Part shown: positions 8,781 through 20,089 of the stretch, piece by piece
Layout: each line of letters starts with the position of its first letter
How positions within the stretch are numbered: the stretch's first letter is position 1
Origin: Phycisphaerae bacterium
GTDB taxonomy: Bacteria > Planctomycetota > Phycisphaerae > UBA1845 > Fen-1342
Reading direction: 5' to 3'
DNA length: 64,000 bases
Assembly (NCBI GenBank): GCA_028279405.1
Contig: JANQNU010000020.1
Location: 62,001 to 126,000 of the forward strand
Notes under the pieces: model-generated
Database searches by the model: none
What the model was told of the DNA's origin: nothing
What the model saw: the letters and a program-made list of their open reading frames with translations, nothing else
Made by a program: the position numbers and the translations under genes

Positions 8781-9341
8781 CTAGGCAAAGGCTGCTTCGA
8801 CCCGCTCGCAAACATAATGGTATGCGAGCAGGTGCCCTTCCTGGATGCGCTCTGAGGTGCGCGCCGGCACACGAAGTACGTGATCGCAAAGCGCTGCTAG
8901 GTCGCCGCCGCTCTCGCCGACGAAACCGATCACCACGGCGCCGCGCTCTCGCGCCAATCGGGCAGCGCCGAGGACGTTAGGCGAGTTTCCGGATGTGCTC
9001 AGCGCCCACAAGATGTCGTCTTTTTGCAGCAACGCCTGGAGTTGCCGTTCGAAAACCCGCTCATATCCGAGATCGTTACCGATTGCCGTAACGGTGGACG
9101 AGTCTGTCGTCAGCGCGAGCGCCGGCAGCGCTTGACGGTCTTGCTTGAAACGGCCGAGCAGCTCGGCGGCGATATGTTGCGCATCCGCGGCACTGCCGCC
9201 GTTGCCGATCGTGAGCACTTTCCCGCCGACGCGAAAGCAACCGACGATGCGCTCGACCATCTGATCGATCACAGTGCCGGCGTCGCGCAGCCCCTCGATG
9301 ACCCGCACATGCTCCGCGTGAACCCGCTCCCAGGTACTCAT
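8781..9341 (-). CDS. gmhA: Phosphoheptose isomerase GmhA
   Basis: This 186-residue SIS-domain enzyme isomerises sedoheptulose 7-phosphate to D-glycero-D-manno-heptose 7-phosphate, the first step toward lipopolysaccharide-core heptose. Visible motifs are 'LTIGNGGSAADAQHIAAELLGRF', 'TDSSTVTAIGNDLGYERVF' and 'ALSTSGNSPNVLGAARLARERGA', with conserved 'EGHLLAYHYVCERVE' at the end. Its ATG overlaps the hldE stop codon in an ATGA arrangement, so the two are translationally coupled in one operon. Together they supply three of the activities of the ADP-heptose pathway. Confidence 0.95.
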   Translation of the reverse strand: MSTWERVHAEHVRVIEGLRDAGTVIDQMVERIVGCFRVGGKVLTIGNGGSAADAQHIAAELLGRFKQDRQALPALALTTDSSTVTAIGNDLGYERVFERQLQALLQKDDILWALSTSGNSPNVLGAARLARERGAVVIGFVGESGGDLAALCDHVLRVPARTSERIQEGHLLAYHYVCERVEAAFA

Positions 9342-10837
9342 CGCCGCTGCGCCGCCTCCATGCCCGCGCGAATCCGCTCGAGTTCTCCGGTCGTACTGAA
9401 GCCGTCGACCAGTTCCACCAGCTCGACCCGCCCGCCGCGGGACTCGACGACATCTTGCCCCACCACGCCTTTGCCTGCCCAATCGGCCCCCTTGACCAAC
9501 ACATCGGGACCGAGCTGTTCGATCAACCGTGCCGGGGTCGGCGCATCGAAGATCACGACATAGTCGACGCACGCGAGTGCCGAGAGCATGCGGGCCCGAT
9601 CGCGCTCCTGACGAATCGGTCGATCAGCCCCCTTCTCCAGCGTCCGGACGGAAGCATCGCTGTTGACGCCGACGACCAGAATGCTGCCGTGTGACTTGGC
9701 TTGTTCGAGCAACTCGACATGCCCCGGATGCAACAGGTCGTAACAGCCGTTGGTGAAGACGACCGTTTCGCCGCGCTGGCGCCGGCCGTCGAGCTCGGGC
9801 ACGAGATCCTCGGCCGACCGCAGCTTGCCCCGGCCCTGGCGCGCCCCACGCACGATCTCTTCGACAACTTCCTCGCGCGGAATCGGCACACACCCGAATT
9901 TCTCGACCTCGAGGCCGCCGGCGATGTTCGCGAGCCGCACCGCCTGTACATCCTGCGCGCCAGCCGCGAGCGAGACCGCCATCATCGCCAGCACCGCGTC
10001 ACCGGCCCCGGTGTTGTCGTACACAGCGCGCGGCGTAGTCGGAACGCGCTCGTGACTGCCGTCCTTACGGACCAACAGCGCACCGTCGCGACCGAGGGTA
10101 GTGACCAGCGATTCCAGCTCGACGTCCGCCACCATCTGCCGCGCCGCCTCGAGCAATGCGTCGTCGGCGAGCGGCCGCCCGACGCCGATCTCCAGTTCTG
10201 CACGGTTCGGCGTCATTGTCGTGGCGCCGCGGTACTTGCCCCAGCCGCCGACACGGCCCGGGTCTACGAGGACCGGCAGGCGCCGGGCGCGGGCCATCGC
10301 GATGATTTCCGCGCACAGCGAATCGGTCAGCACCCCCTTGGCGTAGTCCTCCAGGCACAGAACATCGGCTCCGGCCTCCATCGCGCCTTGTATCCGTTCC
10401 AGCAGGCGCCGTCCGTCGGCGGGCGATGGTGCCAGAATCCGCTCGTCGTCGACGCGCAACAGCTGCTGACGATGACGGTGCTCGGCCAGGCCGACGAGTC
10501 GGGTTTTGGTGATCGTCGGGCGGTCGTCTGCGACCAGCAATCCATGGGTATCGGCGCCGGCTGCGTTGAGCATCGTCCGGGCACGCTCGCCAAACCGATC
10601 GTCGCCGAGCAGGCCAAAACAGAACGCCTCGGCCCCCAACGCCTGAACGTTGAGCGCGACGGAACCGGCGCCGCCGACGCGGTCCTCCCGTTCGGTGACG
10701 CGCAGCACGGGCACAGGAGCTTCCGGCGAGATCCGCGCGGCGTCACCCGTCACATAACGATCGAGCATGAAATCGCCGACGACGAGGATCCGCCGACCTG
10801 CGATACGACCGACGATCTCCAGCAGTTGGTTTGTCAT
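9338..10837 (-). CDS. hldE: Bifunctional heptose 7-phosphate kinase / heptose 1-phosphate adenylyltransferase HldE
   Basis: The protein has 499 residues from ATG 10837. The N-terminal part is a ribokinase-type (PfkB) kinase, with 'ILVVGDFMLDRYVTGDAARISPEAPVPVL', 'GGAGSVALNVQALGA' and 'DNTGAGDAVLAMMA' (catalytic Asp). The C-terminal part is a nucleotidyltransferase with 'FTNGCYDLLHPGHVELLEQAK' (HxGH). It makes heptose 1,7-bisphosphate and later ADP-heptose, with GmhB acting in between; no gmhB is nearby. A TTG at 10864 would add nine residues. A heptose pathway implies an outer membrane with heptose-containing glycans. Confidence 0.95.
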   Translation of the reverse strand: MTNQLLEIVGRIAGRRILVVGDFMLDRYVTGDAARISPEAPVPVLRVTEREDRVGGAGSVALNVQALGAEAFCFGLLGDDRFGERARTMLNAAGADTHGLLVADDRPTITKTRLVGLAEHRHRQQLLRVDDERILAPSPADGRRLLERIQGAMEAGADVLCLEDYAKGVLTDSLCAEIIAMARARRLPVLVDPGRVGGWGKYRGATTMTPNRAELEIGVGRPLADDALLEAARQMVADVELESLVTTLGRDGALLVRKDGSHERVPTTPRAVYDNTGAGDAVLAMMAVSLAAGAQDVQAVRLANIAGGLEVEKFGCVPIPREEVVEEIVRGARQGRGKLRSAEDLVPELDGRRQRGETVVFTNGCYDLLHPGHVELLEQAKSHGSILVVGVNSDASVRTLEKGADRPIRQERDRARMLSALACVDYVVIFDAPTPARLIEQLGPDVLVKGADWAGKGVVGQDVVESRGGRVELVELVDGFSTTGELERIRAGMEAAQRR

Positions 10838-11116
10838 ACGCTGGTAGTGTAGCGTCGACGGCAACGCCCGTCGCGGCCCCCGCGAGTGGGGTCAGACTGA
10901 CCATCTCCGAAATCACGCCATGCGGCTGGTCTACGCAATGCCGAACACTGGCAGCAAGCTCCCTGTGCCACGCGACCCGGTTAACCCCTCGCTCGCAAGC
11001 GACGGGTTCTGCCGTCTCGCGCAACGTGAACCGCTCGCTCGCGCTCGCGGCTCGTTTTCGGGATATCTAAGGACGTGGTGTGGAACCAAGGGCGCCATGT
11101 ACGGTGCCCCACCCTT
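10838..11116. repeat. Intergenic region with dispersed repeats
   Basis: A full copy of the GC-rich repeat (core CGCTCGCGCTCGCGGCTCG) lies at 11031-11054, and a decayed copy around 10986-11006. A decayed AACACTGGCAGCAAGCT palindrome element lies near 10942-10965. A hairpin repeat begins at about 11103 and runs into the stop codon of the next gene. No gene is supported. Confidence 0.7.
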
Positions 11117-11125
11117 CTAGGGTGG
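11109..11125. repeat. CTAG-centred hairpin repeat containing the PTPS stop codon
   Basis: CCACCCT-TCT-AGGGTGG is a 7-bp perfect stem. Related copies are at 17836-17856 and 31808-31830, and a half copy is at 61634-61650. The TAG that ends the adjacent minus-strand gene (11117-11119) is read from the CTAG centre. Confidence 0.7.
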
Positions 11126-11509
11126 AGGACACGTTGACGACTCCGTCGGGTAGTAGCGCGCGGTGCAGCCGGGCGCCTCTTCGACTTCGACCCAGGCCGG
11201 CGAGCCGAACCGCAGCCGACCGAAGTGTTCGGCAATCACGGTTGCGACATTCTCGGCAGACGGGCTACGCTCCTGAAACTGCATCAATTCGTTGAGGTGC
11301 CGATCGTGCATGTTCTGGAGCAAGCCGCGTAGCGCGGGTTTCAGCTCCGTGAAGTCCACGAGCACGCCCATCTCGTCGAGGGTGGTTCCTCGATAGCAGA
11401 GGCGGACGCGCCAGTTATGGCCGTGTAGCGGCTCGAGCGCGCCTCCCGGAAGGCGCAATTGATGCGCGGCGGCAAACCAGTCCTCGATGATCACCTCATA
11501 GCATCCCAT
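11117..11509 (-). CDS. 6-pyruvoyltetrahydropterin synthase family enzyme, PTPS-III-like
   Basis: This 130-residue T-fold enzyme keeps the three zinc histidines (H16 of 'AAAHQL', H29 and H31 of 'LHGHNW'), 'LVDFTELK', 'DRHLNEL' and 'PSAENVA'. Where QueD enzymes have CxxxHGH, this protein has Leu 25, and Glu 26 forms ExxHGH ('LEPLHGH'). In the PTPS-III group this change goes with formation of 6-hydroxymethyl-dihydropterin, replacing folate aldolase FolB. I therefore favour a folate role over queuosine. The last residues, 'CPPP' and stop, are encoded by a dispersed hairpin repeat. It is a single gene, divergent from a lipoprotein gene. Confidence 0.82.
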   Translation of the reverse strand: MGCYEVIIEDWFAAAHQLRLPGGALEPLHGHNWRVRLCYRGTTLDEMGVLVDFTELKPALRGLLQNMHDRHLNELMQFQERSPSAENVATVIAEHFGRLRFGSPAWVEVEEAPGCTARYYPTESSTCPPP

Positions 11510-11735
11510 GTCGATCCTCGTGTCGCAGGATGGTCACAGGTCGGGCCTGCACTCGCACCGCCGCGACGTTGGTCGCACGGCCCTTCCCGACACGGCCGTA
11601 TCGGGCCGCGCGCGCGGCATTGTACTCGTCGATAGAGGAAATGGGCACCGCAGCGCGCGACACCGGCCCGATCGGCGTGCCATCGGTGCCACCGGAAACC
11701 GTTCGCAGGCCATGGGCCTCAGTCGGGAGTCGGCT

Positions 11736-11951
11736 ATGAAACGAAATCGTTGGTGGACGATCGGTCTTGCCTCCGTCGCGCTTCTTGGCACCGGCGCGCA
11801 GGGCTGTAGTACGAAAACAGACGTGACATACAATCGGTTCCGCACGTCACAGGCGTCGCCGACCACGCTCGAGCTCGCCGAGGTGAGCGTGAAGTTTGTT
11901 GAAACAGCACTCGACAACTTGGACGAGCGGATGGAGAATGGCCTTGATTAA
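11736..11951 (+). CDS. Small lipoprotein of unknown function
   Basis: This 71-residue protein has a positively charged start ('MKRNRWW'), a hydrophobic stretch and 'GAQGC', a plausible lipobox at about residue 24. The mature part ('TYNRFRTSQASPTTLELAEVSVKFVETALDNLDERME') is probably helical and short. ATG 11736 has GGGAG six bases upstream. The stop lies 33 bases before the phosphoesterase gene, so the two may be co-transcribed. The 226 bases upstream hold no gene I can support. No family was recognised. Confidence 0.65.
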   Translation: MKRNRWWTIGLASVALLGTGAQGCSTKTDVTYNRFRTSQASPTTLELAEVSVKFVETALDNLDERMENGLD

Positions 11952-11984
11952 CGAGGCTCCCACCAGGAGACGGTCCCCGGCCCG

Positions 11985-12821
11985 ATGAAAATCCTCTTTA
12001 CCAGCGACCTGCACGGGACAGATAGTCTCTATGCACAACTCGAGGCCCTGGTCGCGGTTGAACAGCCCGGCCTGCTGATTTTCGGCGGAGACATGCACAA
12101 CGACGGCGACGCCGCGGACCCCGTCGGTACCCAGTGCGCCTTCGTTCGCACGCAGCTCGCGCGCTGGCTCAAGCGGATGCGCGATTCCGTGGAGGGGCTG
12201 GAGATCGGTGCGATCCTCGGGAACCACGACTGGGAATGCACGCGGACGGCACTGGACGAGTTGGTCGCCGACAAACTGCTGACGATTTTCGACGATCAGG
12301 TGCGGACGCTGTGTGGCATCCACTTTGTCGGGTACTGGCGCACCCCTCCCACACCCTTCTGGCTCAAGGATTTCGAACGGCTCGATCGCGCGGGCGATCC
12401 CTTGCCCGAAGGCGAGGCGATCGTCTGGGATGCCGAACAGCAGCGCGGCCTGGTACGCGACTGTGCGGGACTGTTCACGGAGCGCCAGACCATCGAGGAG
12501 GAACTGGATGCGGTCGCGGTGCCGCCGGCGCCGTGGATCTTTTTGTCGCATGCACCACCGTACGGCTCGGCGCTGGACTGGCTGCCGCAGTTGGATCATC
12601 CGATCGGGTCGCGTGCCGTGCGTACCTTCATCGAGCGCACGCAGCCGACGATCGCGCTGCACGGCCACGTGCACGAATCGCCGGAGGTGACGGGGAAGTA
12701 TCTGGACATGATCGGCGGCACCGTTTGCATTAACGGCGGCCAGAGCCACGAACGGTTGCACGCGGTGGTCTTCGACAGCGACCGGCCGCGCGAGACGATT
12801 CGACACACCGTCTACGGGTAG
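11985..12821 (+). CDS. Calcineurin-like metallophosphoesterase
   Basis: This 278-residue protein has all the di-metal motifs of the family in order: 'TSDLHGTD' near residue 7, 'IFGGDMHNDGD' near 31, 'ILGNHDWE' near 77, 'FLSHAPPYGSALD' in the second half and 'LHGHVHES' near the end. It probably hydrolyses a phosphodiester or phosphomonoester in the cytoplasm, as no signal peptide is seen. The substrate cannot be inferred. It lies 10 bases before aroK and probably shares its transcript. Confidence 0.9.
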   Translation: MKILFTSDLHGTDSLYAQLEALVAVEQPGLLIFGGDMHNDGDAADPVGTQCAFVRTQLARWLKRMRDSVEGLEIGAILGNHDWECTRTALDELVADKLLTIFDDQVRTLCGIHFVGYWRTPPTPFWLKDFERLDRAGDPLPEGEAIVWDAEQQRGLVRDCAGLFTERQTIEEELDAVAVPPAPWIFLSHAPPYGSALDWLPQLDHPIGSRAVRTFIERTQPTIALHGHVHESPEVTGKYLDMIGGTVCINGGQSHERLHAVVFDSDRPRETIRHTVYG

Positions 12822-12831
12822 AAGGGGCCGC

Positions 12832-13386
12832 ATGGCTCCCGCGTCGCTCGAACAGATCGTGCTCATCGGCTATCGCGGCTGCGGTAAGACGAGCGTTGGC
12901 CGCGCGCTCGCGGCGCGAATCGGCTACGACTTCGTCGACACCGACGAGTGCGTCCAGGACAGGGCCGGCTCGACGATCGCGGAAATCTTCGCAGAGCGTG
13001 GCGAACAAGGCTTTCGTGACCTGGAGGTTGCCGAAGTCGCTGCCGCCCTGGCCTGCCGCCGAACCGTGATCAGCGTTGGCGGCGGTGCCGTGGAGCGCGA
13101 CGAGAACCGTCTACGGCTGGCCTCCACTTTCGTCGTCTGGCTGACCGCCGATCCGATGACGATCCAGCACCGAATCGAGCACGATCGTGCGTCTCAAGCT
13201 CAGCGGCCGTCGCTGCTCGGGCTTGACCCTTCTGCCGAGATCGCCGTCAAATTGGCGCAGCGCACGCCGCTGTATCGCGGGCTGGCGACGATCACGGTCG
13301 ATACGACCGCCGCGACGATCGGCGAGTTGGTCGATACGATAGCGACCCACTGGCAATCTGCACGGCGCGAACGACGCGAGGGATGA
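12832..13386 (+). CDS. aroK: Shikimate kinase
   Basis: This 184-residue P-loop kinase phosphorylates shikimate in the chorismate pathway. The Walker A loop is 'LIGYRGCGKTSVGRALA', 'FVDTDECVQDRAGSTIAEIF' carries the shikimate-binding Asp, 'GEQGFRDLEVAEV' contains the conserved Arg, and 'VISVGGGAV' is the GGG loop. 'QRPSLLG' corresponds to the lid arginine region. The stop overlaps the ATG of the prepilin peptidase (ATGATG), so the two are translationally coupled although functionally unrelated. Confidence 0.94.
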   Translation: MAPASLEQIVLIGYRGCGKTSVGRALAARIGYDFVDTDECVQDRAGSTIAEIFAERGEQGFRDLEVAEVAAALACRRTVISVGGGAVERDENRLRLASTFVVWLTADPMTIQHRIEHDRASQAQRPSLLGLDPSAEIAVKLAQRTPLYRGLATITVDTTAATIGELVDTIATHWQSARRERREG

Positions 13387-14936
13387 TGTATCTGGCGATC
13401 CTCGAACTCTTCGTCTGGCTGTTCGGCCTGACGGTCGGCAGCTTTCTGAACGTGGTCGTCTATCGGATGCCGCTGGGCCTGTCGGTCGCATCGCCGCGCT
13501 GGTCGTTCTGTCCTAGATGTCGCGCGCGGATTCGCGGATACGACAACATTCCCGTTCTGAGCTGGCTCCTGTTGGGTGGCGGTTGTCGGAACTGCCGTCG
13601 ACCGATCTCGGTGCAGTACCCGCTGATCGAGGCCCTCACCGGCCTGGCATTCGTGCTCACCTTTCACCTCTTGTTCGTCGAACCGGCACGCGTCGGACTT
13701 CCCCTGCCGAGCGTGGCTACCGACTGGCCACTGCTGCTGGCCTGGCTCACGCTGGCCGCAGCGCTGATCGCTTGCTCGGCGATGGACATCGTCTCATACA
13801 TGCTCGACATTCGTCTGACCGAACTCGCGACGGCGGTCGGCATCGCGCTACACGGGATGTGGGCCCGGCCGGGCTACTTCGGCCACCACTCCATTACCGG
13901 GATTGACGGCGGAATCGTCGACGCGCCGGTCGGGGCGGCAGCGGTAGCCTGCGCCGCGGTCATGCTCTGGCGGTTGCGTACCGTCCGACTCGTTCTCGAC
14001 CAGGATGAGCATGAAGACACTGCGCCAAGCGAAGCGCCGGAGGCCACTGAAGAACCGACAGCAGAAGTCGTAAACCGCGGCGCGCGCGGTGGTGTAAGAT
14101 CGGCGGGCCTGCTGGGCGTGCTGCTCGTCGTTGTCGCGAGCCTGGTGCTGTTGGGCTATCCGCTTGTTGACCGGCTCAATAGCGACATCGCCGCGGCGCT
14201 GGTGCCCGCCAGCCTGCTGGTCATCTTCCTGGTAATGGTACTCGCAGCGAGCCAGCAGCGTGACGCGGATCATGAGGTTCACGAAGCGATCGACGCTGAA
14301 TCCGCGGACGCCCGAGGTGTCGCGCTCAGCGAACTCTGGTGGCTCATGCCGATGGTGCTAGCGGCGATCGGTGCCGGCTTGCTTGTCGGAACAGTCGACG
14401 GTGCAGCGGCGGCCTGGCACTTCGTGGTGAACTGGAAGTTTTCCGACCACTGGTATCCGGTTGCCGGGATGGTCTTCAGCGTCCACGGCATGATCGTCGG
14501 CGCCAGCATCGGGTGGGTCCTGCGCCTGGTCTTTACGCTCCTGTTCGGTCGCGAGGCATTCGGCACCGGCGACATCTACATTCTGGGAGCCGCGGGGGCG
14601 CTCGCCGGTTGGGACATCGCACTACTCGGCCTGATGCTGGCGATCGGCATCGCGTTGCTGGGCTGGATCTTGTCGCTGTTGATGAAGAGCACGACGATGA
14701 TCCCGTTCGGACCGCCTCTCGCGCTGGGGTTCGTCGTCGCGCTCTGGCTCAACGTACCCGCAGCCCAACTCGGTCGGCAATATGCGGAGGCCCTGCGACG
14801 GGCGTGGGCCGTGCAGCCGCAGCTTGTGTGGACCGCCGGGGGAATCCTGCTCGTCGGCGGCGCGGCCGCGGTCGTGCTGGCGCGGCTGCTCCGCGGCTGG
14901 CTGGAGCCGCAAACGGAATCCGAGCGGGAGCGGTAG
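13383..14936 (+). CDS. Enlarged prepilin peptidase (A24, PilD-like)
   Basis: This is a 517-residue polytopic membrane protein. The N-terminal methylase-like domain shows 'GSFLNVVVYRMP' and a four-Cys zinc site (Cys 43, 46, 68, 71: 'CPRC' and 'CRNC'). The peptidase half has 'CSAMDIVSYMLDIRLTEL' with Asp 135 or 142 as first catalytic residue and 'FGTGDIYILG' (GxGD, Asp 397) as second. These are normally about 60 residues apart. Here more than 250 intervene, including an acidic linker ('EHEDTAPSEAPEATEEPTAE') and extra membrane segments. It cleaves prepilin leader peptides for type IV pili or type II secretion. pilT follows closely. Confidence 0.88.
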   Translation: MMYLAILELFVWLFGLTVGSFLNVVVYRMPLGLSVASPRWSFCPRCRARIRGYDNIPVLSWLLLGGGCRNCRRPISVQYPLIEALTGLAFVLTFHLLFVEPARVGLPLPSVATDWPLLLAWLTLAAALIACSAMDIVSYMLDIRLTELATAVGIALHGMWARPGYFGHHSITGIDGGIVDAPVGAAAVACAAVMLWRLRTVRLVLDQDEHEDTAPSEAPEATEEPTAEVVNRGARGGVRSAGLLGVLLVVVASLVLLGYPLVDRLNSDIAAALVPASLLVIFLVMVLAASQQRDADHEVHEAIDAESADARGVALSELWWLMPMVLAAIGAGLLVGTVDGAAAAWHFVVNWKFSDHWYPVAGMVFSVHGMIVGASIGWVLRLVFTLLFGREAFGTGDIYILGAAGALAGWDIALLGLMLAIGIALLGWILSLLMKSTTMIPFGPPLALGFVVALWLNVPAAQLGRQYAEALRRAWAVQPQLVWTAGGILLVGGAAAVVLARLLRGWLEPQTESERER

Positions 14937-18063: not shown

Positions 18064-19233
18064 CTAGAGCGGGCGCAATGGCGAACGGTCCGTTCGGGCA
18101 ATCGCGAACTTGACCGCGGGCAACCGTTGGGCGAGCCGTTGCTGGAGGACGTCCAGCACGGGACGCTCGCTGGCGTAGTGGTCGAGGTAGACCGCCGTAA
18201 CGCCGCGCCGGAGCAGTTCGAGCGCCTCGTGATGCCGAAACTCGCCGGTCAACACAAGCGCATCGGGGTCCCGGAACGACCGCACACCAAAGCTTCCGGC
18301 CGCCGTGACGACGCGCGAAAAGGTCCGCCGCAGGTCGCCGACGACCGCGGCCCGTCGCAGGTCGACCCGCCCACCCAGTGCTTTCACCAGCGTGCTACCG
18401 CGGGTCGGCCGTCGCAACTCCCCGACACGTCCGAGCCCCACTGCCCCCCGGCCCGCAACTGTTGCCACGGGATACAGATCGAAGGCCGGCTCCTCGTACG
18501 AGTGACCGGCGTACAGCGCCCGCACGACGGGCGCCAGCCGTTTGGCCGGAACGACCATCTCGAGTCGGACCTCGTCGACATGTTCGAGTCGCTGGCGACG
18601 GCCGATGGTCGGATTGGTCGTTTCGTCGCCACGGAACGAGCCGCGGCCGTGCAACGCATAGCTGCACTCGGTGTACGCACCGATCACACCGGCGCCAGCT
18701 GCGGCAAGCGCCGCGCGCAATCCGTCGACCTCGGCATCCGGGACGAACACGACGAGCTTGTAGCCGGATTCGCGCTCGACGGAGACGTCCAGCGGGTAGC
18801 GGTCCGTGAGCGCGAACACGTCGAGCAAGACGTCGTTGGTCCCGCCGACGGCCACGTCCAATGCCGTGTGCAGTGCCACGATCGACGTTCGGGCGGCGAG
18901 CAGATCCGGAAACCGCCGGGTCGCGCTGTGGTCGTCCGTGATCCGCTGGATCGGCTTGAAGATCGGTGGATGGTAGAGGACCAGCGCGTCGGCCTGCTTC
19001 GCAAGCGCCTCGTCCGCAACCGCATCGGTCAGATCGATCGCGATCAACGCGCGTGAAACCGGCCAATCGGCGCTACCTGCCAGCAGTCCGACGTTGTCCC
19101 AATCCGCCGCCGCTTGTAGCGGCGCGATCTCGTCGACGGCCGTCACCAGCTCGTGCGTACTGCAAACCCGCCTCCGGCCGCCGGCATTCGCACCGCCCCG
19201 CTTCCGGCCGCTCGACTTACCCGATCGCTTCAT
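18064..19233 (-). CDS. Nif3-like dinuclear metal-centre protein
   Basis: This 389-residue protein belongs to the Nif3/YbgI/DUF34 family. It has 'QAAADWDNVGLLAG' near the start, 'LVLYHPPIFKP' and 'IVALHTALDVAVGGTNDVLLD' with metal-binding His/Asp, and at the end 'DALVLTGEFRHHEALELLRRGVTAVYLDHYASERP'. The middle domain ('ESGYKLVVFVPDAEVDGLRAALAAAGAGVIGAYTECSY') is the inserted PII-like module present in longer members. The N terminus is very basic. Biochemical function is still debated in the family. It overlaps the 3' end of the upstream pabC-like gene by 17 bases, indicating one operon. Confidence 0.9.
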   Translation of the reverse strand: MKRSGKSSGRKRGGANAGGRRRVCSTHELVTAVDEIAPLQAAADWDNVGLLAGSADWPVSRALIAIDLTDAVADEALAKQADALVLYHPPIFKPIQRITDDHSATRRFPDLLAARTSIVALHTALDVAVGGTNDVLLDVFALTDRYPLDVSVERESGYKLVVFVPDAEVDGLRAALAAAGAGVIGAYTECSYALHGRGSFRGDETTNPTIGRRQRLEHVDEVRLEMVVPAKRLAPVVRALYAGHSYEEPAFDLYPVATVAGRGAVGLGRVGELRRPTRGSTLVKALGGRVDLRRAAVVGDLRRTFSRVVTAAGSFGVRSFRDPDALVLTGEFRHHEALELLRRGVTAVYLDHYASERPVLDVLQQRLAQRLPAVKFAIARTDRSPLRPL

Positions 19234-20089
19234 CGCCGCACTCCCGCTTGATGGCGTCTTTGTACGCCGCTCCGAGCTGTCGGGTGATCTCGCCGGGCTT
19301 CTCGTCGGCGATCGGCTGCCGTCCGATACGCACGACCGGCATGATCTCCATCAGGCTGTTGGTCAGGAAGACCTCGTCAGCGTCCAGCAGGTCCTGCTGG
19401 GTGAGGTTGGCCTCGAGAGCTTCGATCCCCTCGGACTGCGCAAGCTCCAGCACGCACGCACGCGCGATTCCGGGAAGGATCGGCGTGTCCCGAGGAGGCG
19501 TCAGGACCTCCTCGTTCACCACCAGGAACACATTGCTGATGGCGCCTTCCGCGAGGAACTCCTCGGTCGTGAACCAGAGTGCCTCCAGCGCGCCGACGGC
19601 GTGCGCTTCCCGCAACGACGCCAGGCGCGAAAAATAGCTGGTTGTCTTGTGTCCGACGACCGGGTCGTTGCGATGCTGACGATAGCGCGACAGCACGGCC
19701 GTCACGCCCTTCAAGTACATTTCGTCGGGGTAGCGCCCGCCTGCAGAGGCCGACGCCACCACGGTCAGCCGCGCGGGCTCGTCCTCCAGGATGCGCAGCG
19801 ACCCAGTGGTGACCGTCAGTCGTACGCGAACGTCCGCCTGCTCACACGCGCCCACGACCTGTCGAACGGCGTCCTCCAGCGACTCGCTATCGGGCACCTC
19901 TGCCCAACCCAGGGCGGCAGCTGACGCCTGCAGGCGGCCAAGGTGATGCTCGAGTCGGAACACGTTGCCGCGATAGGCCCGCATCGTTTCGAAAAGGCCG
20001 ATCCCCTGCATGAAGCCCGAGTCGAACACGCTAATCTGCGCATCGTCGGCCGAAAGCAGCGTGCCGTTGACGCAAACCCATTCACGCAC
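19217..20089 (-). CDS. pabC: Class IV aminotransferase, probably aminodeoxychorismate lyase
   Basis: This 290-residue PLP enzyme of fold type IV has catalytic Lys 148 in 'VVGHKTTSYFSRL', the cofactor-phosphate region 'LAEGAISNVFLV' and 'TNSLMEIMPV'. The N-terminal 'GIGLFETMRAYRGNVFRLEHHLGRL' closely resembles PabC, which makes p-aminobenzoate for folate. D-amino-acid or branched-chain aminotransferase activity cannot be excluded. The presence of a PTPS-III-like enzyme about 8 kb away adds mild support for folate synthesis. It is co-directional and overlapping with the Nif3-like gene. Confidence 0.78.
   Translation of the reverse strand: MREWVCVNGTLLSADDAQISVFDSGFMQGIGLFETMRAYRGNVFRLEHHLGRLQASAAALGWAEVPDSESLEDAVRQVVGACEQADVRVRLTVTTGSLRILEDEPARLTVVASASAGGRYPDEMYLKGVTAVLSRYRQHRNDPVVGHKTTSYFSRLASLREAHAVGALEALWFTTEEFLAEGAISNVFLVVNEEVLTPPRDTPILPGIARACVLELAQSEGIEALEANLTQQDLLDADEVFLTNSLMEIMPVVRIGRQPIADEKPGEITRQLGAAYKDAIKRECGDEAIG

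Follow-up and report, generated by a model that had tools for sequence, protein, structure and literature searches.

A PTPS-family protein without the QueD catalytic triad as a probable FolB substitute in Phycisphaerae

The gene and its predicted product

The window, i.e., the whole stretch of 64,000 nucleotides that was analysed, comes from a bacterium of the class Phycisphaerae. On its minus strand, at 11117–11509, the open reading frame, Pfam and an AlphaFold2 model together delimited a coding sequence for a PTPS-III-like protein of 130 aa, referred to here as P0001. The start codon is the ATG at 11509, with a GAGGA-like ribosome site ahead of it. Within the region 8781–14936, the gene has hldE/gmhA-like genes on one side and a metallophosphoesterase-aroK-prepilin peptidase run on the other; this run is partly conserved in its family.

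The sole Pfam match of P0001 was PTPS (PF01242, E = 1.8e-22), scoring 80 bits where the cut-off is 22.4; membership of the PTPS family is defined by PF01242 or COG0720, and it is the former that was observed. The Pfam scan found no FolB domain (PF02152). The AlphaFold2 model had a mean pLDDT of 95.2 and a pTM of 0.88, and QueD/PTPS proteins were its best matches among solved structures (Z up to 16.8). The top matches were to QueD (PTPS-I, e.g., E. coli 4NTK; Z = 16.6–16.8), with which P0001 shares both the fold and the zinc site, while FolB (dihydroneopterin aldolase) showed only a distant T-fold similarity (Z about 9). Among curated families the best was again QueD (NCBIfam TIGR03367). This ranking, like the common fold, would suit a divergent QueD, that is, a 6-carboxytetrahydropterin synthase acting in queuosine synthesis; however, the score of 60.3 bits falls below the QueD cut-off of 89.25, and the active site departs from that of QueD in lacking Cys and Asp-His and in having an additional Glu.

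These departures are centred on the motif LEPLHGH (residues 25–31; 11417–11437, minus strand), where Leu25 occupies the place of the QueD Cys and is followed by Glu26 (11432–11434, minus strand), with His29 and His31 as zinc ligands; the first zinc ligand, His16, is at 11462–11464 (minus strand). The sequence-only reading had described just this ExxHGH motif with Leu for Cys, and it was confirmed. It had also described the zinc histidines, DFTELK and HLNE as intact; all are present, but the catalytic Asp-His pair immediately before HLNE is lost. Where QueD/PTPS read LDHRYLNE, P0001 reads MHDRHLNE, placing His68-Asp69 (11303–11308, minus strand) at the position of the pair. Two further acidic residues, Glu86 (11252–11254) and Glu111 (11177–11179), are encoded on the same strand; we take Glu111 to be the pterin-anchoring Glu of T-fold enzymes. 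Neither the QueD motif CxxxHGH, owing to the Leu, nor the PTPS-II (biopterin) motif CxxxxxHGH occurs in P0001, whereas the ExxHGH motif of PTPS-III (PMC5041015) is found as EPLHGH. To the extent that sequence can decide, P0001 qualifies as a PTPS-III under the published criteria. The Asp-His pair is absent from the published definition, and His-Asp therefore marks P0001 as a variant without excluding it.

Pathway genes in the source genome

The source genome (5.63 Mb, 95.5% complete) contained FolE, FolK, FolP and QueC. No folB was detected in it; the best match (L004), of 12.7 bits, was rejected as a hidden FolB since it was antisense to a pilin-like ORF. This combination, folB missing with folE, folK and folP present, is the one that the sequence-only reading had proposed as a check. 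Two PTPS genes were present besides P0001. One is a separate, true QueD, which reads CRRLHGH and scores above the NCBIfam cut-off; its presence counts against P0001 being a divergent QueD. The other, a two-domain PTPS of 273 aa (L003; G000:C35:36828-37118), has a degenerate N-terminal half and a C-terminal half with the PTPS-II motif, C(x5)HGH; long frames of this kind recur across the class.

Elsewhere in the window, a DUF34/NIF3 gene adjoins a class IV aminotransferase (18064–20089). The aminotransferase itself (19217–20089) had been cited as a PabC-like enzyme in support of folate synthesis. Its best match was of the branched-chain type and it fell below every cut-off; it is not specifically PabC, therefore, and gives no support to the folate reading.

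Active-site residues among relatives

In total, 150 P0001-like proteins from the class were read by sequence, of which 142 were Cys-less and 8 had Cys. Glu was found at the position of Glu26 in all 150; it is not a chance change in P0001. Among the Cys-less proteins, Glu26, His16, His29, His31 and Glu86 were each present in 142/142, and Glu111 in 141/142. The Asp-His pair was present in none of the 142, the commonest replacements being His-Asn, His-Asp, Glu-Gly and Asn-His. The Gly of HGH was retained in only 90/142; in L057, L060, L063 and L160, HGH has become HEH or HKH with both zinc histidines retained. Seven of the eight relatives with Cys were CExxHGH hybrids, and all seven had Asp-His, as did almost all CExxHGH proteins outside the class. 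Other Cys-less proteins, from other families or phyla (L128, L159, L351, L357, L358), read Asp-Tyr or His-Tyr, while a myxobacterial example (L140) retained Asp-His. By sequence, then, all three residues of the QueD-like catalytic triad are gone from the Cys-less PTPS of the class, and the Glu and zinc histidines are kept. We know of no description of the loss of the full triad in a PTPS-III.

Loss of Asp-His could also mean lost activity, which speaks against the folate reading. P0001 would then be a catalytically weak or dead relative, with another enzyme performing the FolB step; the disappearance of the whole Cys-Asp-His triad and the variable Gly of HGH are consistent with this. Yet across 142 divergent proteins no change was seen in the zinc ligands, Glu26 or Glu86, and only one at Glu111; moreover, genomes that have FolB lack the gene (see below). 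A weak or dead enzyme is therefore very improbable.

Mutual exclusion with FolB

The survey covered 198 genomes of the class Phycisphaerae (Planctomycetota). P0001-like proteins occurred in 163 genomes and FolB above the cut-off in 23, with no overlap. Sequences were read for 149 of these 163 proteins, and a handful of those with the lowest scores among the 163 (e.g., G144) were QueD, another type. One further P0001-like relative (G140) came from a profile search, in which the PTPS proteins that accompany FolB also proved to be QueD-like or two-domain, with no Glu. Neither a P0001-like gene nor FolB was found in 11 genomes, 9 of which were less than 90% complete. Six weak, sub-threshold FolB matches in genomes with P0001-like genes were rejected; four were read (G145 and G157 being left out), and their sequences resembled uricases, which Pfam confirmed for one.

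Kinship was handled in these statistics only by counting families, and both states occurred inside families f4, f10, f14, f18 and f20. Since at least five families are involved, several independent swaps between a P0001-like gene and FolB must have taken place. Furthermore, folK was present at 10 of 12 folB loci (L064–L074 among them) and many FolB-bearing genomes had a second FolK, which suggests that folB and folK were imported as a pair. FolK was found in 154 of 155 good genomes of the class; the folate pathway therefore exists nearly everywhere within it. The exclusion would be left unexplained if P0001 were a divergent QueD. Approximately 70 genomes had a P0001-like gene and no QueD match, which counts against that explanation also, and for the same reason PTPS copy number was rejected as proof of QueD.

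Gene neighbourhoods

At the loci examined, no folate genes adjoined P0001 or its relatives. Proximity to queC in relatives had been another matter for checking, and no Cys-less gene of the P0001 type was beside queC at any locus examined; queC was nearby at 12/69 loci from other phyla, mostly with CExxHGH. Together with the missing Cys and Asp-His, the sub-threshold score, the true QueD of the same genome and the distribution across the class, this leaves a divergent QueD with very little credence.

In 20 of 30 class loci, the protein-arginine kinase pair mcsA-mcsB lay within 1.5 kb of the Cys-less PTPS gene, and it was also near the PTPS gene in some Brocadiales hybrids (loci L039–L063, L205–L210, L214, L081, L088 and L095). 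PTPS is not known to be linked functionally to mcsA-mcsB.

Comparison with known enzymes and origin of the Cys-less group

PTPS-III is a described substitute for FolB (PMC5041015, PMC3223725), and the absence of folB in Planctomycetes is cited in PMC4674097. The PTPS-III of Plasmodium (PDB 1Y13, 2A0S) resembles P0001 in its PTPS fold, in having Glu three residues before HGH and no Cys, and in the absence of folB. Its Glu, in the motif RET-LHGH, is the equivalent of Glu26, the proposed general base, and yields 6-hydroxymethyl-dihydropterin; the folate role was established by assay and with Glu38 mutants, among which Glu to Cys gave the conventional product only and Glu to Leu gave none (PMC2229834). 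However, the Plasmodium enzyme keeps Asp-His (LDHHF) and makes two products, whereas the P0001 group is without Asp-His. Similarly, PH0634 of Pyrococcus horikoshii (2DJ6), the strongest PDB match to the group profile, has a Cys-less ExxHGH motif (EDVHGH) but keeps Asp-His (LDHRN). The bacterial PTPS-I/III hybrids (CExxHGH) have Glu at the same place and are the nearest relatives on the tree; unlike P0001, 68/71 of them keep both Cys and Asp-His.

Phylogenetic analysis, with the trait columns removed, showed that the Cys-less proteins of the class were nested inside the CExxHGH group and that the QueDs of the class formed a separate, supported branch, although many forks were unresolved. On this tree, joint changes of Cys and Asp-His account for no more than two or three independent events. 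The association of Cys with Asp-His is therefore suggestive only, despite striking pooled counts, which were rejected as strong statistics for this reason. Within the class, the hybrids stand alone: their genomes had a single PTPS and no QueD in 7/7 cases, which fits an enzyme with a dual function in queuosine and folate synthesis, and this, with queC near some of the mostly CExxHGH loci of other phyla and never near Cys-less ones, fits sub-functionalisation. Most likely, a dual-function CExxHGH ancestor turned folate-only; Cys would have been lost after this switch, and the Asp-His pair, its partner, may then have drifted freely.

Proposed function and mechanism

The absence of folB, the exclusion of FolB over 198 genomes and the invariant Glu all argue for the folate-type PTPS-III proposed from sequence in the first place. 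P0001 probably supplies 6-hydroxymethyl-7,8-dihydropterin for folate in place of a phosphatase plus FolB, a reading to which we give a probability of about 0.86 on comparative sequence evidence. Its substrate would be 7,8-dihydroneopterin triphosphate from FolE; zinc, held by His16, His29 and His31, would polarise the side chain, and Glu26 would be the base for retro-aldol cleavage, by analogy with the Plasmodium PTPS. FolK and then FolP would act on the product. FolB, whose step P0001 is predicted to fill, uses dephosphorylated dihydroneopterin and no zinc. It is also conceivable that P0001 is a pterin enzyme of the folate or another pathway whose substrate or product differs from those above, such as the monophosphate or a non-folate pterin; the monophosphate is a possible substrate of archaeal PTPS-III (PMC5041015), and the surroundings of the active site are more altered here than in known PTPS-III. 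This is unlikely, however, because the exclusion links P0001 to the step of FolB irrespective of how the substrate is phosphorylated.

If P0001 does replace FolB, Glu and zinc may suffice for the reaction, and Asp-His would be dispensable for making 6-hydroxymethyl-dihydropterin, since it is gone from 142 proteins whose behaviour is in other respects that of a FolB substitute. On balance, we lean towards the view that most of the class obtains this compound from a PTPS-fold enzyme needing neither Cys nor the Asp-His relay, and that loss of the relay may have yielded a clean aldolase with one product, where the enzyme of Plasmodium has two.

That PTPS-III can substitute for FolB was established already. 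What is new, as far as we know, is a class-wide natural experiment, in which folate function would persist with the triad of the parent family gone from every Cys-less member read. With the group lacking Asp-His it becomes possible to test what the reaction to 6-hydroxymethyl-dihydropterin requires of the active site, and whether the role of the Asp-His pair is confined to the pyruvoyl/carboxy product. It also offers a better rule for annotation: proteins for which databases would suggest QueD can be told apart by a Glu ahead of HxH when both Cys and Asp-His are missing.
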